Assembly: GCA_913058215.1 (NCBI GenBank)
Contig: CAJXQE010000004.1
Coordinates: 1-64,000 of the forward strand
Source of the DNA: an uncultured Verrucomicrobiales bacterium
GTDB lineage: Bacteria; Verrucomicrobiota; Verrucomicrobiia; Verrucomicrobiales; DEV007
Direction: 5' to 3'
DNA: 64,000 nucleotides
Within the stretch, counting starts at the first letter, position 1. Each line of letters opens with the position of its first letter. Under the pieces are notes generated by a model that saw only the letters and a list, made by a program, of their open reading frames with translations, was not told the origin of the DNA and did not search any database. Below are positions 10,012-29,217 of the stretch, piece after piece. Position numbers and translations under genes: made by a program.

Positions 10012-10020
10012 AATTCGGAT

Positions 10021-11085: not shown

Positions 11086-11170
11086 GCAAGTTGGCGGTGG
11101 GGCTGGCTGATCCGTCTTTGGATCGAATCCCTTTGTCTCAGGTAATATTTTAGAATTGTCTCAATTGATT

Positions 11171-12072: not shown

Positions 12073-12831
12073 ATGGGTAATCTTTTTCCACGTTGGACCA
12101 ACCTTCTTCCTGTCAAAATCCTTGTCTGCCTTGGCGCTCTTGGTACGGCAGTGGTGGCGCTGGCATGGTATTCGTGGACGCCGAAATTTACGCGTGTCGG
12201 CTACATGCCTCAGCAGCCTATTCCTTTTGATCACAGCGTTCATGCCGGGCAATTGGGACTGGATTGTCGCTACTGTCACACTTTTGTTGAAAATTCTCCG
12301 CATTCCAATATTCCGGCCGCACAGGTTTGCTGGAATTGTCACGGCCCCGGAAAGGTGAAGTCCGATTCGGTTAAGCTTGAGCCGCTCCGTCAGGCGATGG
12401 ATACGAACAGTGAGAATTACACCGGGAAGCCGATTCCCTGGGTGCAGGTTCACGAAACTCCTGATTATGCGTATTTTAACCATTCGGTTCATGTGAATCG
12501 CGGTGTGAGTTGTGTTGAGTGTCACGGACGCGTTGACGAGATGCCGGTGGTTTACCACGCGAAGACGCTCAGTATGAGTTTCTGTTTGGACTGTCACCGG
12601 AATGTTGATGAGCACCTTCGGCCTCTGGATGAGGTTACCAATCTTGCCTGGGAGGCAAAAGATGAAGATGCGAATGAGTTTTATGCGAAAATCGCCGGTA
12701 AAGGTGGTAAAGCTGAAGAATTGAAAGAAGCAGATGCGGATAAGACCTGGGATGAGAAGCTCCTTGGCGCGCATTTGCAGAAATCCTGGAATGTAAATCC
12801 GCCAACCGACTGCGCGGCCTGTCACCGATAG
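12073..12831 (+). CDS. actA: Alternative complex III subunit A, pentahaem cytochrome c
   Basis: The 252-residue protein has one N-terminal membrane anchor (ILVCLGALGTAVVALAWYSW, about residues 16-35) and then five CxxCH haem c sites: CRYCH, CWNCH, CVECH, CLDCH and CAACH. This is the expected pentahaem ActA, which carries electrons in the periplasm within the quinol:cytochrome c/oxidase complex ACIII. It is the first gene of the act operon, directly behind the Rex-like palindrome. The ATG at 12073 places the anchor correctly. Confidence 0.93.
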   Translation: MGNLFPRWTNLLPVKILVCLGALGTAVVALAWYSWTPKFTRVGYMPQQPIPFDHSVHAGQLGLDCRYCHTFVENSPHSNIPAAQVCWNCHGPGKVKSDSVKLEPLRQAMDTNSENYTGKPIPWVQVHETPDYAYFNHSVHVNRGVSCVECHGRVDEMPVVYHAKTLSMSFCLDCHRNVDEHLRPLDEVTNLAWEAKDEDANEFYAKIAGKGGKAEELKEADADKTWDEKLLGAHLQKSWNVNPPTDCAACHR

Positions 12832-12869: not shown

Positions 12870-15800
12870 ATGAAACGTAAGTGGATCCATCCCGAAGAGC
12901 CTGAAGCATCGCGCACTCACTGGCGCAGTGAGGGTGAATTGCAGGGTTCTGAAGAGTTTCAGGGTTGGTTGCAGCGTGAGTTCCCGCAGGGAGCCGCTGA
13001 GCTCGAAGGGGGTGAGGATTCTCGTCGAGGCTTTTTGAAGCTGATGGGGGCCTCGACTGCTCTGGCTGGTTTTGGTGTGGCGTGTAGCCGCCCGCTTCGT
13101 CACTTGGTTCCTTTTAATGATCATGTGGAGTGGCTGGTTCCCGGTCGTGCTCTCTATTATTCGTCCGCCAAGCCGCGTTTGAATGGGGTTGGTTGTGATC
13201 CGCTTGTTGTGTCGACATTTGAAGGGCGTCCGACCAAGGTGGATGGGAATCGCCTTCATCCGGCGAAGTCAGGCGGATCTGATGCTTATACTCAGGCTTC
13301 GATTCTGGACCTTTACGATCAGGATCGTTCGAAAGGTTATTTGAAATCGGGTAGTCCAACGACTCGTAAGGATTTCGAAGAGGGGTATTTTAACGCCTTT
13401 CAAAAAGCCGGGAGTGGATCGAAGACGGCGTTTGTTTTGCCTCGATCGACATCGCCTACTCGAAATCGCCTCTTGGCTGAGCTTGCTGCTCGTTATTCCG
13501 GTGCTTCATTTTATACCTGCGCACCGCTTGATTCGGTGGGCTCGGATCAGGCTTCTGAAGAGTTGTATGGAAAAGGGATTGTTCCTGTCCCGCAGTTGGA
13601 TAAGGCGGAGAAGATTTTTTCCCTGGATTGTGATTTTCTCGGGTATGAGCCAGTGGGTGAGGACTCAATGGCGGAATTTTTCCGTGGTCGTAACGTGGAT
13701 GGTGTTGATGGTGCGGTGAATCGTCTTTATGTGGCGGAAGCGGCTTTCACTTTGACGGGTGGCACTGCGGATCATCGCTACCGGATTTCTCCGAGTCAGA
13801 TTCTTTCGATTGCTCTATTGCTGGCGAGTGAGTTGGCCGCAAAGACGGGTGATGCCGGTCTTGCTGCTATCGCTGCTGCCGGCAAAGGAAAGGTGAATTC
13901 TTCAGTCTTTAATTTGGATTGGATTCGCGAGTGCGCTGCTGATCTGGCTGTTTCCGCTGGGAAGAGTTTGGTTCTTGCCGGTTCTCGTCATGATCGTGAG
14001 GTTCATTTGGTAGTTGCGGCAATTAATCAGGCGCTTGGGGCTTTTGGTCCGGTTGTGTCTCTGGTGAATCATAAGTTGCCTGAATTTAAGGGTATCTCGG
14101 ATCTTGCTAAGTCGATTGATGGTGGCGCTGTTGAGCATCTGTTTATCGTTGGGGAAAGTGATCCGGTGTTTGATGCTCCGTCCGAATTGAAATTTGGCGA
14201 GTTGCTTGGGAAAGTGGCAAATGTTGTTCATCTCAGTAATCGTCTGAATCAAACTGCGAAGGCGGCTGATTGGCATGTGCCGGGTGCTCATTACCTGGAA
14301 TCCTGGGGTGATCACTGGAGTTGTTCCGGTGTTTATTCGGTTCAGCAGCCCATGATCGATCCTCTCTGGGGAGGGGTTTCGGAAAATGCATTTTTACTTT
14401 CCCTTCTTGCGGATGCTGAAGGAAATTCCGATTTGCCTCTCGATGCGGTAAAGAAAACTTTTGCTGCGGTTGGCGGTGCTGACTGGGTGGCTGCTTTGCG
14501 CGATGGTTTTGCAAAGGGGCCGAAGCTTGAGAAATCAACAGCGGTAAATGCCGGTGGTGCTGCTGCTGCTCTTGGTTCTGTTGAGATTGCTGATCTTCCT
14601 TATCCTGAAGCGCTCGAAGTGGTTCTGGCGACCAGTGGTTCTTGTTATGATGGCCGGTTTGCGAATAATGGCTGGCTCCAGGAAGCTCCGGACCCAATCA
14701 CGAAGTTGACTTGGGATAATGCTGCTTTGATCAGTTTCCATACCGCTGAGGAAATGGGTCTTGAAGATGGGGACCTTGTCAGTCTTTCAGTCGAGGATCG
14801 CGAAGTCCGTGTTCCTGTATTGCGGAGCCCCGGTCATGCTGATTACACTTTGACTCTTCCTGTCGGTTATTACGGTAAAAAGGGTTTGGGCATTGTTGAG
14901 AAGGGTGTGGGATTTAACGCGTATCCTTTGGCGACTGTTGATAGTTCTTATATTGTCAGTGGTGTTTCTCTCAGTTTGAGTGAAGAAAAATATCCTCTGG
15001 CTCTCACTGCTGAGCATTACAGCATGGAAGGCCGCGCTATCGCCCGTGAGGGTACGGTGGAGATGCTGAAAGAGGATGAGCATTTTGCGCAGCATCAGGG
15101 GATGGATCATCACGTCCCGGAGACTGTCAGTCTTTACAAGGGGTTTGAGTATCAAAATTTAAATGAGGATAAGGTGGCTCAAAATGAGAGTAACCAGTCT
15201 CCTGCGTTTGATGGGCACGAATTTAAGGTAGATCCACTTCATCAGTGGGCGATGACCGTTGATTTGAATTCCTGCACCGGTTGTAATGCTTGTGTGATTG
15301 CCTGCCAGGCAGAGAATAATATTCCGATCGTCGGTAAGGATCAGGTCATGCGGGGCCGTGAGATGCACTGGATCCGGATGGATCGTTACTTCACCAGTCC
15401 GAACGATCACAAAACCGTTGCTGAGCAGGGGATTGATTTCGAGGCGAACGGAACTCCCGGTCGTCGGAAGGTTGATGATGATAATATCGAGATGATCAAT
15501 CAACCGGTCGCTTGTCAGCAGTGTGAGTCTGCTCCGTGTGAAACGGTGTGTCCGGTCAATGCTACGACGCATACCAGTGACGGTCTCAATGCGATGACCT
15601 ACAATCGTTGTATCGGAACTCGTTATTGTGCGAATAACTGCCCTTACAAAGCTCGTCGTTTCAATTTTTACGATTACAACAAGCGTCCGCTTGATAAGTT
15701 GATCTACGGTCCTCTTGCTCCAGCTAATGGTCACGGAACCACGACGCAACAGTTGCAGAAGAATCCAAATGTTACGGTTCGGATGCGTGGTGTGATCGAG

Positions 15801-16124
15801 AAGTGCACCTACTGTGTTCAGCGCATTAGTGCGGCGAAGATTGGTGCGAAAGTGGCGGCTCGCGATTCGGATGATATTCAGGTCCCTGCGAATTCTTTCA
15901 CGGTTGCCTGCCAGGATGCATGTGGTTCCAGCGCGATTGTCTTCGGGAATCTGATGAACAAAAAGGATCGCATCAACGGGATGAAGACGAATCCCCGCAA
16001 CTACGATTTGTTGAAATATGTCGGGGCGATGCCGCGGACGAGTTATCTCGCCAAGATTAAGAACCCGAATCCGAAGATGCCGGGCGCCGACAAGGTTGGC
16101 ACGGTGACTTCGAAAATGCATTAA
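12870..16124 (+). CDS. actB: Alternative complex III subunit B, molybdopterin-like/iron-sulfur protein
   Basis: The 1084-residue protein fuses a catalytically silent molybdopterin-oxidoreductase-like domain to a four-cluster ferredoxin domain, as in ActB of other ACIII complexes. A twin-arginine motif (SRRGFLKLMG, Arg52-Arg53) precedes a hydrophobic stretch ending near Cys73. The C-terminal part shows the cysteine groups CTGCNACVIAC, CQQCESAPCETVC, CIGTRYCANNC and CTYC, then the last Cys pair near CQDAC. It is periplasmic and membrane-associated, moving electrons from the NrfD-like subunits to the haem subunits. The ATG at 12870 follows actA by 38 bases. Confidence 0.93.
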   Translation: MKRKWIHPEEPEASRTHWRSEGELQGSEEFQGWLQREFPQGAAELEGGEDSRRGFLKLMGASTALAGFGVACSRPLRHLVPFNDHVEWLVPGRALYYSSAKPRLNGVGCDPLVVSTFEGRPTKVDGNRLHPAKSGGSDAYTQASILDLYDQDRSKGYLKSGSPTTRKDFEEGYFNAFQKAGSGSKTAFVLPRSTSPTRNRLLAELAARYSGASFYTCAPLDSVGSDQASEELYGKGIVPVPQLDKAEKIFSLDCDFLGYEPVGEDSMAEFFRGRNVDGVDGAVNRLYVAEAAFTLTGGTADHRYRISPSQILSIALLLASELAAKTGDAGLAAIAAAGKGKVNSSVFNLDWIRECAADLAVSAGKSLVLAGSRHDREVHLVVAAINQALGAFGPVVSLVNHKLPEFKGISDLAKSIDGGAVEHLFIVGESDPVFDAPSELKFGELLGKVANVVHLSNRLNQTAKAADWHVPGAHYLESWGDHWSCSGVYSVQQPMIDPLWGGVSENAFLLSLLADAEGNSDLPLDAVKKTFAAVGGADWVAALRDGFAKGPKLEKSTAVNAGGAAAALGSVEIADLPYPEALEVVLATSGSCYDGRFANNGWLQEAPDPITKLTWDNAALISFHTAEEMGLEDGDLVSLSVEDREVRVPVLRSPGHADYTLTLPVGYYGKKGLGIVEKGVGFNAYPLATVDSSYIVSGVSLSLSEEKYPLALTAEHYSMEGRAIAREGTVEMLKEDEHFAQHQGMDHHVPETVSLYKGFEYQNLNEDKVAQNESNQSPAFDGHEFKVDPLHQWAMTVDLNSCTGCNACVIACQAENNIPIVGKDQVMRGREMHWIRMDRYFTSPNDHKTVAEQGIDFEANGTPGRRKVDDDNIEMINQPVACQQCESAPCETVCPVNATTHTSDGLNAMTYNRCIGTRYCANNCPYKARRFNFYDYNKRPLDKLIYGPLAPANGHGTTTQQLQKNPNVTVRMRGVIEKCTYCVQRISAAKIGAKVAARDSDDIQVPANSFTVACQDACGSSAIVFGNLMNKKDRINGMKTNPRNYDLLKYVGAMPRTSYLAKIKNPNPKMPGADKVGTVTSKMH

Positions 16125-16142: not shown

Positions 16143-17588
16143 ATGGCAGATTCGAATACAGATCAGACTCCGGTCCATCCCTCCGAAGCGGAAGGGATTG
16201 CTCGTGAGCCTTTGGTTTTGAACAACCGCTCGATGGGGTGGATTACGAATCAGATTTGCGGCATTGTCGAAAATCGGCAGCCAATGGTCTGGTGGGTGGT
16301 TTTTGTTCCATCGGTCCTTTTGTTCGGTCTTCTTGTATTTACTCTTGTTCACCTTGTCTCCACGGGTATCGGCATCTGGGGGAATAATCAGCCGGTTGCC
16401 TGGGGTTGGGCGATTGTGAACTTCGTTTTCTGGATTGGTATCGGTCATGCCGGAACCTTGATCTCAGCGATTCTGTTTCTAACGCGACAGAAATGGCGAA
16501 CCTCGGTGAACCGGGCTTCGGAGGCGATGACGCTATTCGCCGTGATGTGTGCAGGGATTTTCCCGGGCTTTCACGTGGGCCGTTTCTGGATGGTCTGGTT
16601 TCTTGCTCCCGCTCCAAATGCCAATGCGATCTGGCAGAACTTTAAGAGTCCGCTCCTCTGGGATGTGTTTGCGGTTTCGACCTACTTCACGGTATCTGTG
16701 ATCTTCTGGTATATTGGTTTGATTCCTGATCTCGCTACTCTTCGTGATCGGGCGAAGACTTTCCTTCCCAAGTTTCTCTACGGGTTCTTTGCTCTCGGTT
16801 GGCGTGGTGCGAATCGGCACTGGCGTCATTATGAGATGGGTTACCTGCTTTTGGCTGCTCTTTCGACTCCTCTGGTTCTTTCCGTTCACTCGGTCGTCTC
16901 CTTTGACTTTGCGACTTCCATTGTTCCCGGTTGGCACACCACGATTTTCCCGCCTTACTTTGTTGCCGGTGCGATTTTCGGTGGCTTTGCGATGGTGCTG
17001 ACTCTGATGCTTCCTGTTCGTAAGCTCTATGGGCTTGAGGACATGATCACAGCCAAGCACATTGATAACATGGCGAAGATCATTCTCCTGACGGGAACGA
17101 TTGTCGGTTATGCTTACATCATGGAGCTGTGGGTCAGTTACTACGGTGCGAACAAGTATGAAAGTGATGCTTTCCACCTCCGGATTCTGTCTGGACCGTA
17201 TACCTGGGCCTACTTTTGCATGTTTTTCTGCAACGTCATTGCTCCTCAGGTCTTCTGGTTCAAGTGGTCCCGGCACAACTTGTGGTTTGTCTTCATTATT
17301 GTGAACTTCGTGAACGCAGGGATGTGGTTTGAGCGTTTCGTAATCATTCCAGGATCTATTGCCAGGGATTTCCTTCCCGGGCAGTGGGGGGATTACTCTC
17401 CGTCCTGGGTGGAGAAGCTGATGTTCCTCGGGACTTTCGGAATGTTCCTGATGTTGTTCCTTCTTTTCATTCGCTTCCTGCCGGTGATTGCGGCAAGTGA
17501 AGTGAAGGGTGTCCTGCCCGAGTCGGATCCACATTATCCGGAATGGAAGCGTTTGCGTGAAAAACGACGGGAGGCCAGTGAGGCGTGA
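16143..17588 (+). CDS. actC: Alternative complex III subunit C, NrfD/PsrC-like quinol site protein
   Basis: The 481-residue polytopic protein has about ten membrane helices in the NrfD/PsrC family. Typical features are [27 protein letters not shown] at the N-terminus, the [17 protein letters not shown] helix and the [30 protein letters not shown] segment. It forms one of the two quinol-interacting membrane subunits of ACIII. It starts 18 bases after actB. The ATG at 16143 is well placed. Confidence 0.93.
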
Positions 17589-17627: not shown

Positions 17628-18185
17628 GTGAGTGAATCAACAGACAGTTCCAAGCAGCTTTTCGGGTATGTGGCTGAGTTTTCTTCAGCAGCAGATCTCT
17701 ATCATGCAGCAGAGAAAGTTCGTGATGCCGGTTTCCGGAAGTGGGACGTTCATACTCCTTATCCGGTTCACGGAATGGATGCTGCCATGGGAATGGGGAA
17801 ATCCTGGCTTTCGGCTCTCGTTCTTGCCGGTGGTATCACCGGTTCCTGCGTCGCTTTGTTCATGCAGTTTTTCACTCAGGTGAATTTGTATCCAACGGTT
17901 GTGCAGAATAAGCCGACCAATCTCTTCACTTTGCCTGCTTTTTTCCCCGTGACTTTTGAGCTCACTATTCTTCTTTCAGCTTTTGCTGTGGTTTTCGGTT
18001 TGCTCGTATTTTTGATGTTACCCCGATGGAATCATCCGCTGTTTGAGTCAGCGCTCTTCCGGAAATTTTCGGATGATGGTTTTATCATGGTGATCGAGGC
18101 TCGTGATCCTCGGTTTAAAAAAGAAAAGACCCGTGAGTTTCTCGAAACAATCGGTGCTTCTCAGATCGAGGGAGTCGAATACTAA
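17628..18185 (+). CDS. actD: Alternative complex III subunit D (DUF3341)
   Basis: The 185-residue protein has the DUF3341 layout: a small soluble N-terminal domain (about residues 1-60; GYVAEFSSAADLYHAAEKVRDAGFRKWDVHTPYPVHGMD) followed by two membrane helices (about 64-84 and 107-131) and a cytoplasmic tail. It starts with GTG at 17628. It is an accessory subunit of ACIII with no redox cofactor visible. Order and spacing fit the act operon exactly. Confidence 0.9.
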   Translation: MSESTDSSKQLFGYVAEFSSAADLYHAAEKVRDAGFRKWDVHTPYPVHGMDAAMGMGKSWLSALVLAGGITGSCVALFMQFFTQVNLYPTVVQNKPTNLFTLPAFFPVTFELTILLSAFAVVFGLLVFLMLPRWNHPLFESALFRKFSDDGFIMVIEARDPRFKKEKTREFLETIGASQIEGVEY

Positions 18186-18212: not shown

Positions 18213-18848
18213 ATGCGTTGGTTTTTTCTAGTCCTGGCTTTGGCAATTGTCACTTTCGTAGTGGCATTGGGGCCCCGTGGTGCCAAGTTTTCCGATCCAC
18301 CTTTTGAGTTGTTTCCGGACATGGACCGGCAGTATAAATTTAAGTCTCAGAAGCCGAGTCACTTTTTTGAAGATGGCCGGGCTTCCCGGAAGCCGGTCGA
18401 TGGAACCATTCCAATGGGCTACTCGGCTCCTCTCAACAAGGAGGACGGCGTTCCGACTTCCGCTTTGGATTTCAGTTACGGTGAAGGCTATTACAACACC
18501 GGCTTATTCGGAGATTACTTTGGCAGTGGGTATCCGGAAGAGCTTACCCTTGATCAAGCTTTGTTGGAGCGCGGAAAGCAGCGTTTCCAAATCAACTGCA
18601 CTCCTTGTCACGGTGAATCCGGCAATGGGCAGGGCATTGTATCGAAATACTGGCTCATTCCACCAACCGCTAACTTGCAGTCGGATCTGGTAAAGGCGCT
18701 GCCTGAAGGCCAACTTTTTTGGACTATTACGCACGGGAAAGGTCTGATGGGTCCATATAAAGGGACGATCAATGTGCAGGACCGGTGGGCGATTGTTGCC
18801 TATCTGCGAGCACTGCAAAAAACATCCGCAACTACGGCGGCTAACTGA
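18213..18848 (+). CDS. actE: Alternative complex III subunit E, monohaem cytochrome c
   Basis: The 211-residue protein has an N-terminal helix (WFFLVLALAIVTFVVALGP) and a single CTPCH haem site at about residue 129, followed by the usual GESGNGQGIVSKY and a Met ligand candidate in KGLMGPYK. It is the cytochrome c subunit that passes electrons out of ACIII. A GGAG sequence lies upstream of the ATG at 18213. Confidence 0.92.
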   Translation: MRWFFLVLALAIVTFVVALGPRGAKFSDPPFELFPDMDRQYKFKSQKPSHFFEDGRASRKPVDGTIPMGYSAPLNKEDGVPTSALDFSYGEGYYNTGLFGDYFGSGYPEELTLDQALLERGKQRFQINCTPCHGESGNGQGIVSKYWLIPPTANLQSDLVKALPEGQLFWTITHGKGLMGPYKGTINVQDRWAIVAYLRALQKTSATTAAN

Positions 18849-18880: not shown

Positions 18881-20389
18881 ATGGCTGGACTGAAGGACGC
18901 AGACGATTTTAAGGACGGGGAACACTTTAAGGGTGCCGGACTGCTGAAGTTTGTACTCGGTATTGTGGGATTTGGAGGCATGGCTTTGTTTCTTCTTCTC
19001 GCTTTCTTCTGGAAGGATAAGACTCCCGAGATGGCCTACAGCTGGCTTTTCGCAGTTGTGTTCTTCCTGAGCCTTTCCGTTGGTGGCCTTTTTTGGACGC
19101 TTTTGCATCATGCCAGCAACTCGGGATGGGGGACGGTTGTCCGTCGTCTGATGGAAAACCTGGGTAGCATGATTCCCTTTATTCTTATTCTTGGTGTTCC
19201 ATTCCTGATTGAGGGCTGCGGTTTCCGTAATGCCCTTTGGGAATGGTTTCCGGAAAGAGAAGCTGCTCTTCATTCGGCTGAAGTGGAAACGGAAGCTCAC
19301 TTTGCCGAATACAAGGCGGATTTGGAAGCTGATGTCGCAAAGGCGGATGCTGAAGTAAAAGCTGGCGAGGCTGCAATTTCTTCGCAGCCGAATCTCAAGC
19401 CGGGCGAGAAGCGTCACTTGGAAGACAAGCTGCAAGTCCTTAAGAAGCAGGCTGCGGAACTTGGGGAGGAAGATCTGTCCGACGATGCGGGGCTGAGAGC
19501 AAAACTTAAAGATGATTACTTCCGTGAAGAGGCTGCGCTTCTTCACGCAAAGCAGGGATTTCTCAACGAAGGATCCTGGTTTGTTCGCTACCTTCTCTAT
19601 TTTATAGGCTTGACCGGGGTGATCTTCATATTGCGCGGTTGGTCGATCAAGCAGGATCGCGATGGAGATCCGAAATGGTTTCTTTTAATGCGTCGCTGGA
19701 GTTGCGGATTTCTTCCTATCTTTGCAGTGTCCTGGACATTCCTTGTTTTCGATTGGCTGATGGCCCTGGATTACACCTGGTTTTCAACCATGTGGGGTGT
19801 CTATCTCTTTGCCGGTGCGGCATTGAACTCAATGGGACTCCTTGTGATTGTCCTGACGCTGCTCCGCCGGGCTGGATACCTCAAGAATGTAGTGACCATG
19901 GAGCACTACCACCTCATGGGGAAACTGATGCTCGCCTTCACCATTTTCTGGGCATACATCGCCTTTTCCCAGTTCTTCCTGATCTGGTATGCGAATATTA
20001 CGGAGGAAACCAAATTCTACCTCACTCGAAATACCGATTTCTGGAACGTTTACACAATCACCTTTCTGGTGATCGGTCACTTCTTCGTCCCTTTTGCCGC
20101 CCTGCTGATTCAAAAGTTTAAGATGATGCCAGCGGTGCTTTCCGGGATTGCTGTGTGGAACTTGATCATGCACTCCTTGGATATATACTGGATTATTATT
20201 CCGGAACGTGGCGTGTCTCTGACCAATGGTACCCAGATGACGATGCCGGGTGCGTGGCTGTTTGATTTGTTGGCCTTTGTCAGTGTGGCTGGGATATTTG
20301 GATTCTTCCTTTTGCGTCAGTTGGGTAGTGCCAGCTTGTTCCCTTGCCGGGATCCGCGCCTCGATGAATCCCTGAACGTCGTTAACTGA
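18881..20389 (+). CDS. actF: Alternative complex III subunit F, NrfD-like, with a coiled-coil insertion
   Basis: The 502-residue polytopic protein is the second NrfD/PsrC-like subunit of ACIII, with about ten helices; MEHYHLMGKLMLAFTIFWAYIAFSQFFLIWYAN and the C-terminal pair are characteristic. Between the third and fourth helices (about residues 125-220) lies a highly charged, Ala/Glu/Lys-rich stretch predicted to form a coiled coil, rather than the short loop I would expect. The reading frame is intact, so the insertion is part of the protein. It is the last act gene and precedes the lysine-rich membrane protein by 25 bases. Confidence 0.9.
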   Translation: MAGLKDADDFKDGEHFKGAGLLKFVLGIVGFGGMALFLLLAFFWKDKTPEMAYSWLFAVVFFLSLSVGGLFWTLLHHASNSGWGTVVRRLMENLGSMIPFILILGVPFLIEGCGFRNALWEWFPEREAALHSAEVETEAHFAEYKADLEADVAKADAEVKAGEAAISSQPNLKPGEKRHLEDKLQVLKKQAAELGEEDLSDDAGLRAKLKDDYFREEAALLHAKQGFLNEGSWFVRYLLYFIGLTGVIFILRGWSIKQDRDGDPKWFLLMRRWSCGFLPIFAVSWTFLVFDWLMALDYTWFSTMWGVYLFAGAALNSMGLLVIVLTLLRRAGYLKNVVTMEHYHLMGKLMLAFTIFWAYIAFSQFFLIWYANITEETKFYLTRNTDFWNVYTITFLVIGHFFVPFAALLIQKFKMMPAVLSGIAVWNLIMHSLDIYWIIIPERGVSLTNGTQMTMPGAWLFDLLAFVSVAGIFGFFLLRQLGSASLFPCRDPRLDESLNVVN

Positions 20390-20414: not shown

Positions 20415-20981
20415 ATGAGCGAGAAAAGAGAGTCTGCCGTCACAGGTTCCCGGATATTCATCGGGAGCGTTGTCGCCCTGTTTGGATTCGGGTTGCTGGT
20501 CACGCTCGTCGTGGCCAGTGGAACCGGGCAGACCCCAATTGATCGAACTGCGGCGGGTGATTTTGATGCCGAGACGACTAAGCTTCGCTGGAAAAATTTG
20601 GATGAGGTTTCCTCAGCTCAATCTGCGGCCCTTGATCAGGATGCCCTCGATAAAGCGATGTCAGCTGTCATTCAGGAAAGCGCATCTGCCAAGGCTACCA
20701 AGACGGAACTGGTTGTGCCGGGTTCGCCTACATTTTTGAAACAGGCTGCTGCTGCGGCTCCACCAGCTCCGACGGATGCCGCGCCGACGGATGCCGCGCC
20801 ACCTGCTGTGGCTCCTACGGATGCTGTTAAACCAGCGGAAAAGACTGATAAACCTCAGGCTCCGGGCTCAGATGCCAAGCCGAAGAAGGGCAGAAAGAAG
20901 AAGACTGAGGCTGAGAAAGAAGAAAAGAAGAAGGCCAGGGCAGCCAAGAAGAAGGCGAAAGAAGGGGACTCCTCGCAGTAA
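20415..20981 (+). CDS. Membrane-anchored Ala/Pro/Lys-rich protein between act and cco-like genes
   Basis: The 188-residue protein has one N-terminal helix (IFIGSVVALFGFGLLVTLVVAS, about residues 14-35), a short soluble segment, then a low-complexity tail: a PTDAAPTDAAP repeat and a very basic end (KPKKGRKKKTEAEKEEKKKARAAKKKA). I recognise no family. Its place between actF and the oxidase genes suggests a structural or assembly role in the respiratory supercomplex, but that rests on position only. The tandem TDAA codons suggest repeat slippage. Confidence 0.6.
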   Translation: MSEKRESAVTGSRIFIGSVVALFGFGLLVTLVVASGTGQTPIDRTAAGDFDAETTKLRWKNLDEVSSAQSAALDQDALDKAMSAVIQESASAKATKTELVVPGSPTFLKQAAAAAPPAPTDAAPTDAAPPAVAPTDAVKPAEKTDKPQAPGSDAKPKKGRKKKTEAEKEEKKKARAAKKKAKEGDSSQ

Positions 20982-21026: not shown

Positions 21027-22490
21027 ATGACAGTGCAGCAACCAACAGCGGAAGATATGCAGGAAAGAGCGATCATTGATCGTTCAGCCCGCTTTCCCGT
21101 GATGTTTTTCTTCACCAGCGCCGCTGCCTGGTTATTTGTGGGAACACTTCTCGGACTGTTCAGTTCGCTGAAGTTAAGCCAGCCCGGACTCGGAGACAGT
21201 TTTGGTATCTTCGGTTACGGCCGTATTTACCCTGCCCACACGATTGCCATGGTTTATGGTTGGGCGATGCAAGCCGGGATCGGAGTTTTGATCTGGCTAA
21301 TGGCACGGCTGACACGCAACCCGGTCCGACGAGGTCTTGCGATTCTTGTTGCGGGTCATGTTTGGAATGCCGCTGTCGCAGTGTCCATCATTTGTGTCAT
21401 TATTGCTAAAGGACGTTCCATTCCCTGGCTTGATTTCCCGGGGTGGCTTTGGCCGTTGTTTGCCTTTTCCTATGCTTTGATGGTGATTTGGGTGATTCCA
21501 ATGTTTCATTCCCGCAAAGGGGGCCCCGTTTATATTTCCGAGAAGTTCATCGTTGGAGCCGTTATCTGGTTCCCGTGGATTTTCCTCACTGCAAATTTCC
21601 TGATCGGGGCTGAGACAGCGCCGGTTCTGAGTGCCGGGGTTGATGCCTGGTATATCAGTAACCTGATTACCTTCTGGATGGCTCCTCTCACTCTTGCTGT
21701 GGCTTACTACATCGTGCCTAAGATTGCAGGCCGACCTCTTTACAGTTACACGCTGGCCAGCATCAGTTTCTGGGTCTTGGCCGTTCTTGCAGGCTGGACA
21801 GGTTTTTCCCGCTACATGGGTGGTCCTTTCCCATCGTGGATGCCTGCGATCAGCGGAGCGTGTTCGATTCTTTTGCTTCTGGCAATCATCGCAGCAGTCG
21901 CCAATATTGGAGTTACGCTTAAAGGTTGTTCCAAGGTTTGGGAATTGAGTCCATCGCTTCGATTTACTGTTTTTGGAGTTCTGATGCTGGCGGTATACGC
22001 CTTGCTTGCGGCTGCCAGTTCCACTTTCCTGATTGGCGGTCCTCTTCAGTTCACGCCGTTCTCGGCAGGACTTGATACCTTGGCGGTATACGGATTCTTC
22101 TCCATGTCGCTCTTCGGTGCGATTTACTTTATCGTTCCCCGGATCACCGGAGCGGAATGGCCTTCCGGTCGCCGGATTCGCCGCCACTTCTGGTTCAGCG
22201 CTTATGGAATTATTTCTCTGATCGTTCTCATGCTGGTTGGCGGAATTGCTCATGGAGGTGGCATGGCGGTCTGGAACCGGCCTTTCTCCACTCTGTTTTC
22301 GATCTCGACGGCTTACTCGACCGGGCTTTGTGTTGTCTGGGCGATGATTTCTTTTTCCAACTTTTGGTTTATGCACCAACTGGGGATGATGTTTATCGGA
22401 AAGGGTAGGAAATCAGGTGGCCCTACTTTGATTCACGGAGAGCCGGGTGCGGCAGTTGGCGCGAAGGAGGCTGCGGGGATTACCTCGTAA
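21027..22490 (+). CDS. CcoN-like subunit I homologue lacking haem-copper ligands
   Basis: The 487-residue protein has about twelve membrane helices and aligns without gaps, from memory, to cbb3 oxidase subunit I (CcoN): GRIYPAHTIAM, AYYIVPKIAGRPLYSY and GAIYFIVPRITG are all recognisable. His71 (first low-spin haem ligand) is kept. The residues at the CuB ligands are Ser211 (His in GHN) and Ser261-Arg262 (the HH pair), the cross-linked Tyr is gone, and the HVH giving the b3 and second low-spin ligand is Leu349-Asp350-Thr351. It therefore should not reduce oxygen. The frame is open and the gene sits with ccoO- and ccoP-like genes, suggesting a repurposed membrane subunit. I start at ATG 21027 rather than TTG 21021. 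Confidence 0.85.
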   Translation: MTVQQPTAEDMQERAIIDRSARFPVMFFFTSAAAWLFVGTLLGLFSSLKLSQPGLGDSFGIFGYGRIYPAHTIAMVYGWAMQAGIGVLIWLMARLTRNPVRRGLAILVAGHVWNAAVAVSIICVIIAKGRSIPWLDFPGWLWPLFAFSYALMVIWVIPMFHSRKGGPVYISEKFIVGAVIWFPWIFLTANFLIGAETAPVLSAGVDAWYISNLITFWMAPLTLAVAYYIVPKIAGRPLYSYTLASISFWVLAVLAGWTGFSRYMGGPFPSWMPAISGACSILLLLAIIAAVANIGVTLKGCSKVWELSPSLRFTVFGVLMLAVYALLAAASSTFLIGGPLQFTPFSAGLDTLAVYGFFSMSLFGAIYFIVPRITGAEWPSGRRIRRHFWFSAYGIISLIVLMLVGGIAHGGGMAVWNRPFSTLFSISTAYSTGLCVVWAMISFSNFWFMHQLGMMFIGKGRKSGGPTLIHGEPGAAVGAKEAAGITS

Positions 22491-22532
22491 GTAAGTTGGG
22501 TATTGGGATACGGTGTTAACGATTTGTCATTA

Positions 22533-23171
22533 ATGAATTCAAACGGTACGTGGAAATTTCTGGGTGGTCTTGGAGTGGTGTTTGCCTTGCCTTGGTTAGT
22601 GCTGATTGTCATCCCTTTCCTGAGTATGTCATCGACTGCTCCTGTCGCCTACGTCGAAGCTGATGAAGTCGAGGGCGGATTGACTGCCTACCCGGACCGT
22701 TCAACTCTTCGTTACGGTGCGAGTGATTTCGGAGCCGATGTGTATGCCTCTGAGGGATGTGTCTATTGCCACACGCAGATGGTTCGTCCTACTTATGCGG
22801 GTCCGGACATGTGGCGACAAGGCTGGGGTGGACGCGAAGCGGATGGTCTCGCCCGCGAAACCCGCCCGGAAGATTATTTAGGAGAGAAGTTTGCTTTTCT
22901 TGGATACCAGCGTATCGGCCCGGATTTGTCGAACGTAGGATACCGTGTTGCGAATCGGGAAGAGATGCATCAGCATCTTCGCGATCCGAAGAGTGTGATC
23001 AGAGACGGATCCGACAACAGGGACAGCGGAATGCCGGCATACAAGCATCTTTATAAATTGGATACGATGACAAATAAGCTGGTTCCCACGGATCGAGCAG
23101 AAGCCCTCGTGGATTATTTGATGTCGAGAAGGAAAGACGCAAAGATTCCCGCGTCACTAGTCGGAAAATAG
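22533..23171 (+). CDS. CcoO-like monohaem cytochrome c
   Basis: The 212-residue protein has an N-terminal helix (FLGGLGVVFALPWLVLIVIPFL), a haem site CVYCHTQMVRPT near residue 78 typical of CcoO (CHTQMVRP), and an axial Met in SGMPAYKHL. In cbb3 oxidase this subunit passes electrons to subunit I. Here the neighbouring CcoN-like protein lacks its metal centres, so it may instead relay electrons between ACIII and the aa3 oxidase. I use ATG 22533; an in-frame TTG 30 bases upstream adds ten residues of no family character. Confidence 0.85.
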   Translation: MNSNGTWKFLGGLGVVFALPWLVLIVIPFLSMSSTAPVAYVEADEVEGGLTAYPDRSTLRYGASDFGADVYASEGCVYCHTQMVRPTYAGPDMWRQGWGGREADGLARETRPEDYLGEKFAFLGYQRIGPDLSNVGYRVANREEMHQHLRDPKSVIRDGSDNRDSGMPAYKHLYKLDTMTNKLVPTDRAEALVDYLMSRRKDAKIPASLVGK

Positions 23172-23212
23172 AAACAGGAAGTATCCGATCTCTCCCCAAG
23201 GATTTTTGATTG

Positions 23213-23983
23213 ATGAACAACGACGAAACCAGGAACCTCGATTCAGAAGCAGGAACGGCCAGCGTGGTCGATATGCACGATGCGGTAAAGCGGGAGAAAA
23301 CCCTTCTTATGGCGGGGAATGCTGCGGCTGGCATCTCAGTTCTCGTCGTTAGCGCTGTAATTTTGTTTGTTGCCGGTGGACAGCTTTTCAGCAACGCCAA
23401 TGGCTTTAGCTCCAGTATTTACAAGTCAGATTTCTATTCGCCCGAAGCGCGGCCGCCTCTTGGGGGTGAAGAGGAAGTAGGCGCGGATGTTGCGTGGATC
23501 GAAGACTGGATGTCTGACGGGAAGAAAGTGTATAACAATTGCGTTGCCTGTCACCAGCCTTCCGGAACGGGAGCTCCCGGACAGTTTCCTCCCTTGAAGG
23601 GATCAGAGTGGGTTGATGGCGGAACTGAGCGTCTCGGCGCTATTATGCTCAAGGGTATCACCGGTCCGTTTACGGTTGCTGGTCAGAGTTACAATCAGCA
23701 GATGCCTGCATGGAACGCTTTGAACGATGAGAAAATTGCTCAGGTTCTTACCTATATTCGCCGCGAATTCGGCAGTCTTGCTGAGGGCGAAGACGGCATT
23801 GTGACGACGGAGATGATGAAAGCTGCGCGTGAGCAATACGCTGACAAGGCAGGTTTTTGGGATGAGGCTTCATTGAAAGCAATTTCGGCAGATGCAAATT
23901 TGCCTGGTGCTAAAGTGGACCTTATAACAGGGAAACCACTTGGTGAAGAGGAGGCTGCTCCGGAAGGTGCAGAAGCCCCGTAA
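23213..23983 (+). CDS. Membrane-anchored monohaem cytochrome c (CcoP-like position)
   Basis: The 256-residue protein has one anchor helix (AAAGISVLVVSAVILFVAGG, about residues 37-56) and a class I cytochrome c domain with CVACH at about residue 110 and an axial Met in QQMPAWNAL; ITGPFTVAGQSYNQ is typical of oxidase-linked cytochromes c. Only one haem is present, where true CcoP has two. An AAGGA sequence (23198-23202) precedes the ATG at 23213. Its likely role is electron delivery to the aa3 oxidase encoded next. Confidence 0.85.
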   Translation: MNNDETRNLDSEAGTASVVDMHDAVKREKTLLMAGNAAAGISVLVVSAVILFVAGGQLFSNANGFSSSIYKSDFYSPEARPPLGGEEEVGADVAWIEDWMSDGKKVYNNCVACHQPSGTGAPGQFPPLKGSEWVDGGTERLGAIMLKGITGPFTVAGQSYNQQMPAWNALNDEKIAQVLTYIRREFGSLAEGEDGIVTTEMMKAAREQYADKAGFWDEASLKAISADANLPGAKVDLITGKPLGEEEAAPEGAEAP

Positions 23984-24056: not shown

Positions 24057-25985
24057 ATGAGCGACGCGACAACAGCAGACGGCCACGATCATGCACACGA
24101 TGAGCATGAGCATCACGATGCGCCTTTCTGGAGAAAATACATTTTTTCAACCGACCACAAGGTGATCGGGATTCAGTATGGGTTCACCTCGCTCCTGTTT
24201 TTGGCGCTGGGATTTTTCCTTATGATGGTGATGCGATGGAGTATCGCCTATCCGGATCGCGCTGTACCGATGCTGGCTGACTGGCCCTGGTTTCAGGCCT
24301 GGTTGGATGACGAAGGAAAAGTTACCGGTGATCTCTACAATATGTTCGGTGCGATGCACGGAACCATCATGGTTTTCCTCGGGATTGTGCCGCTGGCCTT
24401 CGGTGCCTTCGGTAACTACGTCACCCCGCTGCAAATCGGTGCTCCGGATATGGCCTTTCCCCGCCTCAACATGGCGAGTTATTGGTTTTTCCTAATCGGT
24501 GGTGTTTTGATGTTCGTCAGCTTCTTCCTGCCATCAGGTGCGGCGAAAGCGGGGTGGACCAATTATTCTCCGCTGGCAACCACGACTGATTTACACTATT
24601 CCGATCTATTCTGGACCGGCCAGACGCAATGGATTCTAGGGATGGTCTTTTTGATTAGTTCCTCGCTTCTTGGCGCCGTGAACTTCATCTGTACGATTAT
24701 CAATCTCCGTTGTAAGGGGATGACATGGATGCGTCTCCCATTCTTTGTCTGGGCGATGTTAGTGACCGGTTTCCTTCTTCTTCTTGCCTTCCCGCCGCTC
24801 GAAGTTGCGGCAATTATGCAGCTGATGGACCGCCTTGGTGGAACCAGTTTCTTTGTTCCCACGGGTCTGAATGTGGGTGGAATGGCTTTTGATGCTGCCG
24901 GTGGTGGTAGCCCACTGCTCTACCAGCACCTTTTCTGGTTCCTGGCTCACCCTGAGGTTTATGTTTTGATTCTGCCAGCAATCGCGATTGTTTCCGAAAT
25001 TATCCCGTGTAATACCCGTAAACCTTTGTGGGGCTACAAGACGATGGTGTATGCCGTCATGGTTCTCGGCTTCCTCGCGTTCATCGTGTGGGCTCACCAC
25101 ATGTATATCACCGGTATGGGAACGGCGATTTCGACTTTCTTCCAGATTACGACGGTCCTGATTTCAGTGCCCTCGGTGATTTTGATTACATCGCTCTTAA
25201 TATCGATGTGGGGAGGATCGATTCGTTTCAATGTCCCGATGCTTTTCGCGACGGCATTCATTCCGATGTTCGGAATTGGTGGTCTTACCGGCTTACCCCT
25301 GGCGTTCAGCCTTCCTGACCTCCACCTGCATGATACCTATTACGTGATTGCTCACTTCCACTATGTGGTGGCGCCTGGAACGATTTTCGGTCTCTTTGCC
25401 GGGATCTATCATTGGTATCCGAAAATGACCAATCGGATGATGAGCACAAAGCTGGGGCATCTTCACTTCTGGCCTTCACTCATCTGCATGAATGGTATTT
25501 TCCTTCCGATGTTCTTTCAAGGGATGGCTGGTTTCCACCGTCGAGCCTTTGATGGCGGAATGGCTTACGAGCAAATCAGTTCCCAACTTTTCGCCGAGGC
25601 GGGAACCATTACTGCGAAGATGTTTGAGTTGCTTCACGTTATTGAACCGGGTGCGGCAGTGAAGCTGATCGATTTAAATATCGTGACCTCCGGGTTTGCC
25701 TGGATGCTGGCGATTGCCCAGGTGCCTTTCATTATTAACCTTTTTGGTTCCGTTTTCTGGGGCAAAAAAGCCGAGGGTATCAACCCCTGGGGTGCAACCA
25801 CTTTGGAATGGAGCACTCCGACTCCTCCGCCACACGGAAACTTTGAGTCCGAGCCAGTGGCTTATCGTGGACCATACGAATACAGTGTACCCGGTGCGGA
25901 TTCTGATTTTACCGCCCAGTTTGATGGTGAGGCTCCGGTGACGGACGCTGAAGTGGAGGATGAAGTTTCTGAATCCCACGCCTGA
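24057..25985 (+). CDS. ctaD: Cytochrome c oxidase subunit I (aa3 type)
   Basis: The 642-residue catalytic subunit has all the ligands missing from the CcoN-like protein: His in GAMHGTIMVF (haem a), the AHPEVY motif (CuB His-Tyr pair and proton-channel Glu, about residue 300), WAHHMY (CuB) and IAHFHYV (haems a3 and a). The proton-pathway signature IGAPDMAFPRLN is present, so this is an A-type proton pump. The N-terminus is unusually rich in His (GHDHAHDEHEHH). It reduces oxygen to water in the inner membrane with electrons from ACIII-linked cytochromes. Confidence 0.96.
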   Translation: MSDATTADGHDHAHDEHEHHDAPFWRKYIFSTDHKVIGIQYGFTSLLFLALGFFLMMVMRWSIAYPDRAVPMLADWPWFQAWLDDEGKVTGDLYNMFGAMHGTIMVFLGIVPLAFGAFGNYVTPLQIGAPDMAFPRLNMASYWFFLIGGVLMFVSFFLPSGAAKAGWTNYSPLATTTDLHYSDLFWTGQTQWILGMVFLISSSLLGAVNFICTIINLRCKGMTWMRLPFFVWAMLVTGFLLLLAFPPLEVAAIMQLMDRLGGTSFFVPTGLNVGGMAFDAAGGGSPLLYQHLFWFLAHPEVYVLILPAIAIVSEIIPCNTRKPLWGYKTMVYAVMVLGFLAFIVWAHHMYITGMGTAISTFFQITTVLISVPSVILITSLLISMWGGSIRFNVPMLFATAFIPMFGIGGLTGLPLAFSLPDLHLHDTYYVIAHFHYVVAPGTIFGLFAGIYHWYPKMTNRMMSTKLGHLHFWPSLICMNGIFLPMFFQGMAGFHRRAFDGGMAYEQISSQLFAEAGTITAKMFELLHVIEPGAAVKLIDLNIVTSGFAWMLAIAQVPFIINLFGSVFWGKKAEGINPWGATTLEWSTPTPPPHGNFESEPVAYRGPYEYSVPGADSDFTAQFDGEAPVTDAEVEDEVSESHA

Positions 25986-26037: not shown

Positions 26038-27540
26038 ATGGAAATTCCCTACGAAGTGACACCACGCCGCGATACGGGTTTGTTTAACGCAAAACTCGGG
26101 ATCTGGTTGTTTCTGGCGTCCGAGGTAATGCTTTTTGGCGGATTGTTTTCCGCTTATGTCTTCCTGCGCGTTGGTGTTCAGGAAGGTGTCGACACCCCCT
26201 GGCCATGGGGAATCAATGTTCACAAAGACTTTGTGTATCTCGGTTTCCTCAACACCCTTGTTCTGATTCTATCCAGTGTTTGGGTGGTTTTTGCCTGGGT
26301 TGCCTTGAAGGAGCGAAACTGGAGAAAATTTCAGCTCTACATGTATGGCGTGGTTGCCTGCGCCATGATCTTCATGGTAGTGAAAGGGATCGAGTACAAT
26401 TCCAAACTGAATCATCACCACGGTATTAAGCTGACGGACAATTCGGTAATGGAGGGCACGATTGTTCACGGAACCGACAAAATCGATTTCACTGGAACGA
26501 AATTCACGTTCAATCTCCAGGGCGGTTTGCCCGGATTCATCAAGGACATTACCAAGGATGATGTTGGATTCTCTCTAGAAGGGGAAGAATCCGTGGAGTT
26601 TGCCAACGCCGCAGAGGTGAAAGCATGGTTCCTCAAGTCGCGAAGTAAAGTTGCCAACGAACTTGCGCTCGAGCGGAAACGTTACCGTTCGGAGTTAGCT
26701 GTGGACCGGGATTCAGCAAAGCCAGTGAGTGTAAACACCAAGGCTACGGTGATCGCAAAGGGGCCGATCCAGATGAAGGCGAATCCTCGCAAAGTAGTCG
26801 CGCATTCCGCTACTTCTTTGAGTTATAAAGATGGGACGAGTGTTGAAGGTAAGCTCGTTCGCGACGCGGTTGAGTTTGTTGTTCATGAAGTGGATATGCA
26901 ATTGGTGCTCCCACAAAATCAGCGGACATCTATCGTTTGGGATGTCATCGGAGACGAAGGCGCCAAGAAGCAGTTTTTCGATGCTCAGAAGCTCCGTTAC
27001 GATGAGCTCGCAGAATACTATGAGAAGCGTGGTAAGACGATTCCTCTTAGCACAATGCGTGGTTATATTTTGAACCTTCATCCGGTCCACATCGGGGGGC
27101 ACGGTGATGATCATGGTGACGGCGACCACAAAGAGCACGGCAAGGAAAAGAAAGATGGCGATCATCACGCTGGAGTTTCGACACATCTGAGCGAGGCCAT
27201 TCCTACGGCAGACACAGAGAGTGCCGGGAGCGAAGAGGGACACGAACACGGTGGGCATGATGAACACACCATTTCCGTTCCGCGCGACAAGATTAAATTC
27301 ATGGGTAACCACGGTCCCCGTTACGGGAACTACTACGCGATCTATTTCACGATGACAGCCCTTCACGGTCTTCACGTTGTGGGTGGTGCGCTGGTGCTTC
27401 TCTTTATGGTGGTATTCGGTAAGAAACTTTACCTGAAGAATCCGGAGCATCTCGCGAATCGCGTCGAGGTGGGCGGTCTCTTTTGGCACTTTGTGGATCT
27501 GGTGTGGATCTTCCTCTTCCCACTGATGTATCTTCTCTAG
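26038..27540 (+). CDS. ctaE: Cytochrome c oxidase subunit III with a large hydrophilic insertion
   Basis: The 500-residue protein is nearly twice the usual subunit III length. Residues 1-127 hold the first three helices (NAKLGIWLFLASEVMLFGGLFSAY and two more). The last 81 residues resume the family with GNYYAIYFTMTALHGLHVVGG and end with FWHFVDLVWIFLFPLMY. Between them, about residues 128-419, lies a hydrophilic region of some 290 residues, rich in charged residues and with a His cluster near 355-400 (GGHGDDHGDGDHKEH). It is in frame and not a separate gene. The protein supports subunit I; the insert may be an extramembrane assembly or metal-binding domain. Confidence 0.9.
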   Translation: MEIPYEVTPRRDTGLFNAKLGIWLFLASEVMLFGGLFSAYVFLRVGVQEGVDTPWPWGINVHKDFVYLGFLNTLVLILSSVWVVFAWVALKERNWRKFQLYMYGVVACAMIFMVVKGIEYNSKLNHHHGIKLTDNSVMEGTIVHGTDKIDFTGTKFTFNLQGGLPGFIKDITKDDVGFSLEGEESVEFANAAEVKAWFLKSRSKVANELALERKRYRSELAVDRDSAKPVSVNTKATVIAKGPIQMKANPRKVVAHSATSLSYKDGTSVEGKLVRDAVEFVVHEVDMQLVLPQNQRTSIVWDVIGDEGAKKQFFDAQKLRYDELAEYYEKRGKTIPLSTMRGYILNLHPVHIGGHGDDHGDGDHKEHGKEKKDGDHHAGVSTHLSEAIPTADTESAGSEEGHEHGGHDEHTISVPRDKIKFMGNHGPRYGNYYAIYFTMTALHGLHVVGGALVLLFMVVFGKKLYLKNPEHLANRVEVGGLFWHFVDLVWIFLFPLMYLL

Positions 27541-27574: not shown

Positions 27575-27961
27575 ATGGCTGGTTCAACAACATCAACAGA
27601 TTTCACCAAGGAGAAGAGCGCATACAAGGTCGTGATGTGGTCTTTGTTCGTTTGTACCTTCATTACTCTCGGCCTCGGGAAATTGGATTTTCTCGATTTC
27701 GGCCCTCCCGGTGCAGACTGGGTTGATATATTGGTAGGTATTTCCCTGGCTGGTGTAAAAGCCTCCCTGGTTTCCCTAATTTTCATGCACTTGAATCATG
27801 AAAAAGGGCTCATCTACAAGATGCTCCTGTTTACTCTCGCTTTCTTTATCAGCCTCATGGGGCTGACTCTCTTTGCCGGCTCTGATCCGATAGTGGAGCA
27901 GTATGAAACTCTCCAAACTACAAAAGGGAATCTGACTGAGACGCCTGTTACAAACGATTGA
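27575..27961 (+). CDS. ctaF: Cytochrome c oxidase subunit IV (CtaF/CoxD-like)
   Basis: The 128-residue protein has three hydrophobic helices (about residues 20-40, 50-70 and 78-98) and the prokaryotic subunit IV pattern VWSLFVCTFITLGLGKLDF followed by KASLVSLIFMHLNHEKGLIYKML. It is a small non-catalytic subunit of the aa3 oxidase. It starts 34 bases after ctaE and overlaps nothing. The assignment is by family and position. Confidence 0.85.
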   Translation: MAGSTTSTDFTKEKSAYKVVMWSLFVCTFITLGLGKLDFLDFGPPGADWVDILVGISLAGVKASLVSLIFMHLNHEKGLIYKMLLFTLAFFISLMGLTLFAGSDPIVEQYETLQTTKGNLTETPVTND

Positions 27962-28449: not shown

Positions 28450-29217
28450 ATGATTGAGTGGATTAACGACAAGATTTTCATGCACGAGGTCGCTTCAGAG
28501 CATGGCGACATCGGTAACCATATGATGGCCCTGATCCACTGGTTCATGGCAATCCTTTTTGTGGGTTGGACAGCATTTCTCCTGGTAATTCTGGTGAAGT
28601 TCCGCAAACAGAAGAATCCCAAAGCCAGCTATCACGGTATCACCTCACACTTTTCGACTCACATTGAAATCGGGGTGGTGATTGTGGAAGTGGTTCTCCT
28701 CATGGGATTTGCCTTCCCGCTTTGGGCGAAACGTGCAGATCGAAGTGCCCGACCTGTCGGAGATGAAGTGGTGAATCTGCGTGCAGTCGGTGAGCAGTAT
28801 CGTTGGACATTCCATTATGCGGGAGCTGATAAGCAGGTGGGAATGAGTTCCTACGAGCGGGTCAATGCGGGATCGAATCCAGTTGGTCTGGTTAAAGAGG
28901 ACCCGAACGCAACCGACGATTTTGTGACAATCAACGAATTGGTGATTCCTAAGGGACGTCCTGTCGTGATTCAGGTGACTTCCAAGGATGTGATTCATGG
29001 TTTAGCGATTGTTCCTATGTTCATTCAACAGGATGCCATTCCCGGTTCGGAGATTCCGATGTGGTTTGTTCCTGATGAAGTGGGTGAGTGGAATATCGTA
29101 TGTGCTCAGCTATGTGGAGCGGGGCATGCGAAGATGGTTGCTGAAGTCAGAGTCGTTGAGAGCGAAGAATTTGACGAGTGGTATGGTTCTCAGAACCCTA
29201 TTCTTCCGAAAGAGTAG
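28450..29217 (+). CDS. ctaC: Cytochrome c oxidase subunit II
   Basis: The 255-residue protein has two membrane helices (about residues 28-50 and 72-93) and a periplasmic cupredoxin domain with a full CuA site: His183 (DVIHGLAI), Cys218 and Cys222 (CAQLCGAGH), His226 and Met229. The electron-entry aromatic patch is EQYRWTFHY. There is no C-terminal haem domain, so it is not a caa3 subunit II; separate cytochromes c must deliver electrons. It is the last structural gene before a terminator. Confidence 0.95.
   Translation: MIEWINDKIFMHEVASEHGDIGNHMMALIHWFMAILFVGWTAFLLVILVKFRKQKNPKASYHGITSHFSTHIEIGVVIVEVVLLMGFAFPLWAKRADRSARPVGDEVVNLRAVGEQYRWTFHYAGADKQVGMSSYERVNAGSNPVGLVKEDPNATDDFVTINELVIPKGRPVVIQVTSKDVIHGLAIVPMFIQQDAIPGSEIPMWFVPDEVGEWNIVCAQLCGAGHAKMVAEVRVVESEEFDEWYGSQNPILPKE

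Follow-up and report, generated by a model that had tools for sequence, protein, structure and literature searches.

The CcoN-like protein encoded at the alternative complex III (ACIII) locus analyzed here belongs to a real family of pseudo-oxidase subunits, here called CcoN*, which has ligand-complete sister forms and is richer than first described. We propose that, independently in at least two lineages and probably in three, an oxygen-reducing oxidase became a cofactor-free scaffold that fixes a haem-c relay of CcoO and CcoP between ACIII and a different oxidase, and that the "cbb3 oxidase" reported beside ACIII in methanotrophs would be such a pseudo-oxidase without O2 reduction, an account which, taken as a whole, we hold to be evenly poised between right and wrong.

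Loss of the catalytic residues in a predicted CcoN fold

The ccoN* gene was found in a stretch of 64,000 nucleotides, here called the window. Its frame was open from the ATG at 21027 to the stop at 22490. The encoded protein belonged to the COX1 superfamily (PF00115, 120.2 bits against a gathering threshold of 34.8), and its best curated relative was the ccoN family TIGR00780, although the score of 98.8 bits was below the equivalog cut-off of 583.15. The only solved structures related to it by sequence were the N subunits of cbb3 oxidases. In a comparison with the Pseudomonas stutzeri structure 3mk7, the identity to the cbb3 subunit I was about 21%, and the protein fell in a clade of its own.

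The catalytic sites were read from a gapped alignment that included P. stutzeri CcoN (3mk7) together with more than 160 homologs, in which seven catalytic positions were scored (H60, H207, Y251, H257, H258, H345, and H347 in P. stutzeri numbering). All three CuB histidines were lost, with H207 replaced by Ser211, H257 by Ser261, and H258 by Arg262. The cross-linked tyrosine was also gone (Y251 to Ala255), and the HVH motif with the ligands of haem b3 and the second haem b read Leu349-Asp350-Thr351, such that H345 was replaced by Leu349 and H347 by Thr351. The original prediction had read the same residues at the CuB and HVH sites, and a loss of the tyrosine, from an ungapped comparison with a CcoN sequence, and the gapped alignment gave the same register. 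S240 and Y317, which we take to be residues of the proton (K-) channel, were replaced by Ala244 and Leu321, respectively. The anchor motifs WYxxN, RPxYSY, FW, and IVPR were intact around the lost positions, in line with the prediction of an open frame with conserved motifs elsewhere, and the histidines therefore have not shifted position. Shifted histidines were ruled out by the gapped alignment together with the fold model described below.

H60, which aligned with His71, was the sole catalytic position that matched P. stutzeri CcoN. It had been predicted that only this low-spin haem ligand remains, and the residue is indeed aligned but is not conserved: across the ligand-less set the position was occupied by 72 His, 18 Phe, 16 Ala, and 13 Gln, and also by Ser, Leu, Glu, and Arg. 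Because of this variation, His71 cannot be taken as a sign that a haem remains, nor was it regarded as a retained haem ligand.

An AlphaFold model inferred with 55 homologs (mean pLDDT 89.7, pTM 0.91) matched 3mk7 with TM scores of 0.85/0.89 and an rmsd of 2.0, and the best solved matches were cbb3 subunit N chains. The model thereby indicates that CcoN* keeps the CcoN fold, and the alignment to the P. stutzeri structure, which had been put forward as a check, gave absent ligands in a kept fold. The positions fixed in canonical and in complete act-linked CcoN and lost in both ligand-less sets were, in P. stutzeri numbering, R57, E122 (presumably the calcium site of CcoN), W203, H207, T215, S240, Y251, H257, H258, Y317, H337, H345, and H347. 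These positions clustered at the active site and the channel. The scaffold was retained, with W24, R83, W102, W204, K228, P265, H384, and G403 unchanged in the ligand-less proteins.

The ACIII locus and its oxidase genes

The gene order in the window was actABCDEF, a gene for a small membrane protein, ccoN*, ccoO, ccoP, coxA, coxC, coxD, coxB, ctaA, ctaB, and sco (Table 1), as predicted for a gene situated between ACIII and a normal aa3 oxidase together with ccoO- and ccoP-like cytochromes. The genes for ActA to ActF were located together, with ActF assigned by position, which indicates that the window encodes ACIII. The CcoO-like protein matched the CcoO chains of solved cbb3 oxidases and scored below the ccoO equivalog cut-off. 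The CcoP-like protein contained a single CxxCH motif, as opposed to the 2 haem-c sites of canonical CcoP, and a single motif was also found in all complete sister forms for which an ORF was available.

Table 1. Genes of the ACIII locus in the window
Feature	Position	Strand	Evidence or remark
ActA, five CxxCH	12073..12831	+	
ActB, iron-sulfur protein	12870..16124	+	Domain search and place in operon
ActC, NrfD-like	16143..17588	+	PF03916; ACIII structures 6f0k_C (596 bits) and 6btm_C (506 bits)
ActD	17628..18185	+	PF11821 ActD, 194 bits
ActE, monohaem cytochrome c	18213..18848	+	
ActF	18881..20389	+	Size, position, and conservation; Pfam without match
Small protein, one membrane helix followed by an Ala/Lys/Pro-rich tail	20415..20981	+	
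CcoN-like pseudo-oxidase subunit (ccoN*), 487 aa	21027..22490	+	Without CuB, haem b3, second haem-b ligand, and cross-linked Tyr
CcoO-like membrane-anchored monohaem cytochrome c	22503..23171	+	CVYCHTQMVRP, Met in SGMP; PF02433 FixO, 53.5 bits vs 29.6
CcoP-like monohaem cytochrome c	23210..23983	+	CVACH; PF00034/PF13442; TIGR00782, 31 bits
CoxA, aa3-type subunit I	24057..25985	+	PF00115, 433 bits; TIGR02891, 546 bits; all ligand motifs present
CoxC, subunit III	26038..27540	+	Insert of about 300 aa separating the two halves
CoxD, subunit IV	27575..27961	+	PF03626
CoxB, subunit II	28450..29217	+	PF00116, CuA motif, no fused cytochrome c

It was also noted that the N-terminal half of the small protein resembled a membrane-anchored monohaem cytochrome c encoded at the same place in relatives (L083, L084, L107, L180, and L181), and that the haem domain was absent from the window copy. 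The insert in CoxC was partly His-rich and split the COX3 domain; some relatives had a long protein (546 to 557 aa) and others a short one (about 295 aa). Upstream of the act operon, 3 consecutive ORFs at 9439-11839 encoded proteins with type IV prepilin-like N-termini.

Ligand-less and ligand-complete forms share one operon position

A match was found in 29 of the 37 near genomes, most often to the window gene and in some cases to canonical ccoN only. A search of named genomes yielded the best 80 loci, all from Verrucomicrobiota, and 80 further loci were drawn from 388 genomes of the phylum. The act-linked homologs in one Verrucomicrobiota class (n = 150) comprised 124 ligand-less and 26 ligand-complete sequences, the latter with HHYHHHH at the scored positions. 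Of the ligand-less sequences, 83 were of the window type and 41 were not; the set included those of the isolates Persicirhabdus sediminis and Haloferula sp. BvORR071.

Among the named loci, ccoN* was followed by ccoO, ccoP, and coxA wherever the contigs reached, and the act genes were nearly always located upstream, with the exception of L076, which lacked act genes over a distance of 10 kb, and of L102 and L110, which had only actE and actF. The act operon was split in L102, L110, and L234 (genome G033), where actE and actF accompanied the ccoNOP-cox genes and the other act genes were located elsewhere. All across the Verrucomicrobiales set, ccoP was immediately followed by coxACDB. The complete forms were mostly encoded in a nine-gene act-ccoNOP operon without cox genes behind it, and coxA was close in 2 cases (L152 and L155). 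There were also 41 ligand-less act operons with no coxA nearby. A strict rule that ligand loss needs an adjacent coxA was rejected on account of these 41 operons and the 2 ligand-complete operons with coxA. About 40 ligand-less operons stopped after ccoP with no adjacent coxA, and the oxidase partner must there lie elsewhere.

The haem-c motifs of the neighboring cytochromes were kept. Among loci with an ORF, CxxCH was present in CcoO in 111 of 111 ligand-less and 26 of 26 complete loci, and in CcoP in 118 of 119 and 24 of 24, respectively, that is, in 229 of 230 neighbors of ligand-less CcoN* overall. The class sample included 93 genomes with an ActC of this type, 91 of which contained the N family (counted by hand), and CcoN*, CcoO, and CcoP thus appear, with good genetic support, to be part of an ACIII-linked module. 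The 2 exceptions were G399, in which the contig ended at actE, and G043 (L232), which lacked N, O, and P altogether and had coxC, coxD, and coxB after the act genes. G043 belonged to the same family (f8) as the pmo-bearing genomes discussed below, and the joint absence fits N, O, and P as one unit.

The complete act-linked proteins (L144, L152, L155, L171, and others) kept the cross-linked tyrosine and had Thr or Gln at the canonical Glu323, a residue that has been called mandatory in cbb3 oxidases (PMC5492636), and they therefore constitute an unusual C-type group. A further COX1 gene was present in 50 of the 50 ligand-less genomes checked, each of which had another haem-copper oxidase. The ligand-complete act-linked form was the only COX1 in G037 and G178 (98% to 99% complete) and so is probably a working oxidase.

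Two other types of ligand-complete proteins were observed without act genes. In another class, L160, L161, L176, and L183 contained a C-type subunit of 458 to 479 aa, distinct from canonical CcoN, with an adjacent CcoO-like ORF. Furthermore, L166, L168, and L170 encoded a CcoN relative of 550 to 634 aa (YYMHQ, GTHHF) with a CcoO-like partner of 338 to 363 aa.

Repeated loss of the ligands and purifying selection

In a tree of 42 sequences, from which the ligand columns were removed, the act-linked family formed a clade separate from canonical CcoN, and the ligand-less sequences required 3 changes. One was placed along the lineage leading to Verrucomicrobiales and their allies, another within a second large group adjacent to the complete L171, and the last in L197, which was nested with the complete L144 and L184. 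One ancestral loss was ruled out by the AU test (p = 1.8e-5 for a single origin of the ligand-less forms), and 2 origins, with L197 apart, were weakly rejected (p = 0.037). A quick tree of 77 sequences also gave 3 losses, which were placed differently (L146 beside L155, L197 beside L144, and one large clade). The phylogeny of verrucomicrobial CcoN-like proteins called for in the original prediction thus firmly indicates at least 2 independent losses, and a third is likely.

Among the close ligand-less pairs, 29 gave finite estimates; their dN/dS values ranged from 0.014 to 0.287, with dS saturated in many of them, and those of ligand-complete pairs from 0.014 to 0.075. On these values, decay of the gene was rejected, and the ligand-less proteins are under purifying selection. 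The prediction that the protein was repurposed rather than decayed is borne out by this selection, the intact frames, the conserved operon, and the repeated loss. It had also been expected that all homologs in this gene context would lack the ligands under purifying selection; the selection was recovered, but the 26 complete act-linked relatives, which belong to other lineages, show that the loss is not universal.

The "cbb3 oxidase" beside ACIII in methanotrophs

According to a review, the ACIII genes of verrucomicrobial methanotrophs adjoin a cbb3-type oxidase, and the pairing of ACIII with a C-type oxidase is restricted to these methanotrophs and Opitutaceae (PMC8498564, after Refojo 2010). 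The Kam1 genome paper tied the cbb3 oxidase beside ACIII to high O2 affinity (PMC6688271), a cbb3 oxidase has been listed among 3 oxidases (PMC10205796), and cbb3 was placed beside aa3 at the ACIII locus of M. caldifontis IT6 (PMC11102522). The gene pairing is thus not new (PMC8498564, PMC6688271). The passages on this oxidase in PMC8498564, PMC6688271, PMC10205796, and PMC11102522 make no mention of missing ligands, no ligand-less CcoN-like protein was found in a search of the openly accessible literature, and the missing active site of CcoN* seems to be undescribed.

Five genomes of the class, each with 2 to 4 pmo/amo genes and a size of about 2.2 to 2.5 Mb, had a ligand-less subunit I (motifs SESSHFV and ADAAHQT) in their ACIII locus, with coxA downstream. 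The other COX1 genes in these pmo-bearing genomes were A- and B-like, and no second C-type oxidase was recognized among them. A COX1 protein of 476 aa (L225, genome G075), considered as a possible real CcoN in a methanotroph-like genome, read as NorB when inspected by eye. The pmo/amo genes, the class, and the oxidase set suggest that the pmo-bearing genomes represent Methylacidiphilum and its kin; if they do, what has been reported as a "cbb3 oxidase" next to ACIII is a pseudo-oxidase. Judging from the passages cited above, some published genomes seem to count the ccoN* cluster as a real oxidase.

A putative scaffold for a cytochrome relay

We think it fairly probable that CcoN* is a cofactor-free pseudo-oxidase subunit that anchors a CcoO-CcoP relay on ACIII. 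It would descend from the catalytic subunit of a C-type oxidase that was linked to ACIII and encoded by actABCDEF-ccoNOP, and that is still complete in the sister lineages. Another oxidase would have taken over O2 reduction, in the window lineage the aa3 oxidase encoded by coxACDB behind ccoP, and the active site and proton channel would have been lost after this takeover, with the membrane fold retained. CcoN* presumably keeps its contact surfaces for CcoO and CcoP, such that the N-O-P module would stay as an anchor for 2 monohaem cytochromes c at ACIII. Electrons might then pass from menaquinol to ActB, to the five haems of ActA, and through ActE/CcoP/CcoO to the CuA of CoxB and O2. The original prediction envisaged a membrane scaffold or relay subunit in a respiratory supercomplex. 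A genetic module with ACIII is well supported, and a scaffold that carries a cytochrome relay is the reading we favor; that ACIII, NOP, and aa3 form a physical complex, and the sequence of steps in the relay, we infer.

The bridge between ACIII and aa3 is a sixth ActA haem in Flavobacterium johnsoniae and a cytochrome domain on CoxB in Rhodothermus marinus (PMC8552683, PMC5928083). Five haems were counted in ActA in all 112 loci counted, and CxxCH was found in none of the 73 clusters in which CoxB was encoded beside the N gene. A CoxB with CxxCH was identified in L235 and L236, two ACIII clusters that lack NOP, and in 3 stand-alone clusters. With a five-haem ActA and a CoxB that lacks the cytochrome, CcoO and CcoP are natural candidates for the bridge, and an electron relay from ACIII through them is plausible. 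The CoxB in L232 of G043 has no fused cytochrome, yet N, O, and P are absent; the NOP module is thus not strictly required, and the argument from a missing bridge is not absolute. Where no cytochrome is fused to an aa3-type oxidase, the enzyme often relies on soluble cytochrome c.

A role of CcoN* solely in the structure or assembly of ACIII, or as a glue between ACIII and the oxidase, with CcoO and CcoP feeding soluble cytochrome c and other acceptors instead of a bound aa3, would explain why the NOP module stays with the act genes where there is no adjacent coxA. It would also agree with the finding that ActE is dispensable for aa3 in F. johnsoniae, from which it follows that the electron paths of ACIII may branch (PMC8552683). 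We nevertheless consider this role unlikely, given the coxACDB genes directly behind ccoP in the Verrucomicrobiales set and the CoxB without a cytochrome domain. That CcoN* is still chemically active, with His71 and polar residues binding a haem, redox, or ion cofactor in an ion channel, a sensor, or another reductase, is very improbable: the fold and some polar residues, among them His387, Lys232, and Arg94, are very strongly conserved, but the latter are conserved in canonical CcoN too and are therefore probably structural, and His71 is replaced in many relatives.

The lost catalytic residues, and the lineage of G043 without the whole module, might also be expected of a decaying relic carried by an essential operon. 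The omega values, the full-length frames in many genera, and the repeated loss followed by long retention make such a relic highly unlikely. The window comes from a fragmented assembly of 595 contigs, which could have raised the suspicion that the histidines are located elsewhere or were removed by sequencing errors. We give this artefact practically no credence, as the 124 sequences agree, isolates included, the flanking motifs fix the register, and the fold model superposes.

If the scaffold reading of CcoN* is true, a haem-copper oxidase subunit would clearly have been retained as a pseudoenzyme, and since live and dead forms occupy the same place in the operon, the transition from catalyst to scaffold would be traceable. 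CcoN*OP also bears on how ACIII hands electrons to its oxidase, and cbb3 calls beside ACIII in Verrucomicrobiota, including methanotrophs, need a ligand check before they are counted as high-affinity oxidases.

Comparison with known systems

The window module shares the subunit I fold, the N-O-P gene order, the CxxCHxQMxRP motif of CcoO, and the membrane anchors with the cbb3 oxidase CcoNOP of P. stutzeri (3mk7). The latter keeps the ligands of CuB, haem b3, and the second haem b, the cross-linked tyrosine, and a two-haem CcoP, whereas the window proteins have lost these sites and include a one-haem CcoP. The published ACIII-linked C-type oxidase of Opitutaceae and methanotrophs appears to belong to the gene family of ccoN* and to occupy the same place in the operon. 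The passage on Opitutaceae in PMC8498564 may refer to the ligand-complete sister forms. The methanotroph enzyme is treated as cbb3 in the passages concerned, but subunit I is ligand-less in the Methylacidiphilaceae-like genomes.

The supercomplexes of F. johnsoniae and R. marinus link ACIII to an A-type oxidase, with direct electron transfer, as is proposed for the window. Their bridge haems are absent here, and a CcoN*-CcoO-CcoP module, known from its genes, is placed in between. A redox-enzyme fold without cofactors serves as a structural partner in bd oxidases, for example, where CydB accompanies CydA. CcoN* differs from CydB in its descent from the haem-copper superfamily and in its partner, which would be another, working oxidase.
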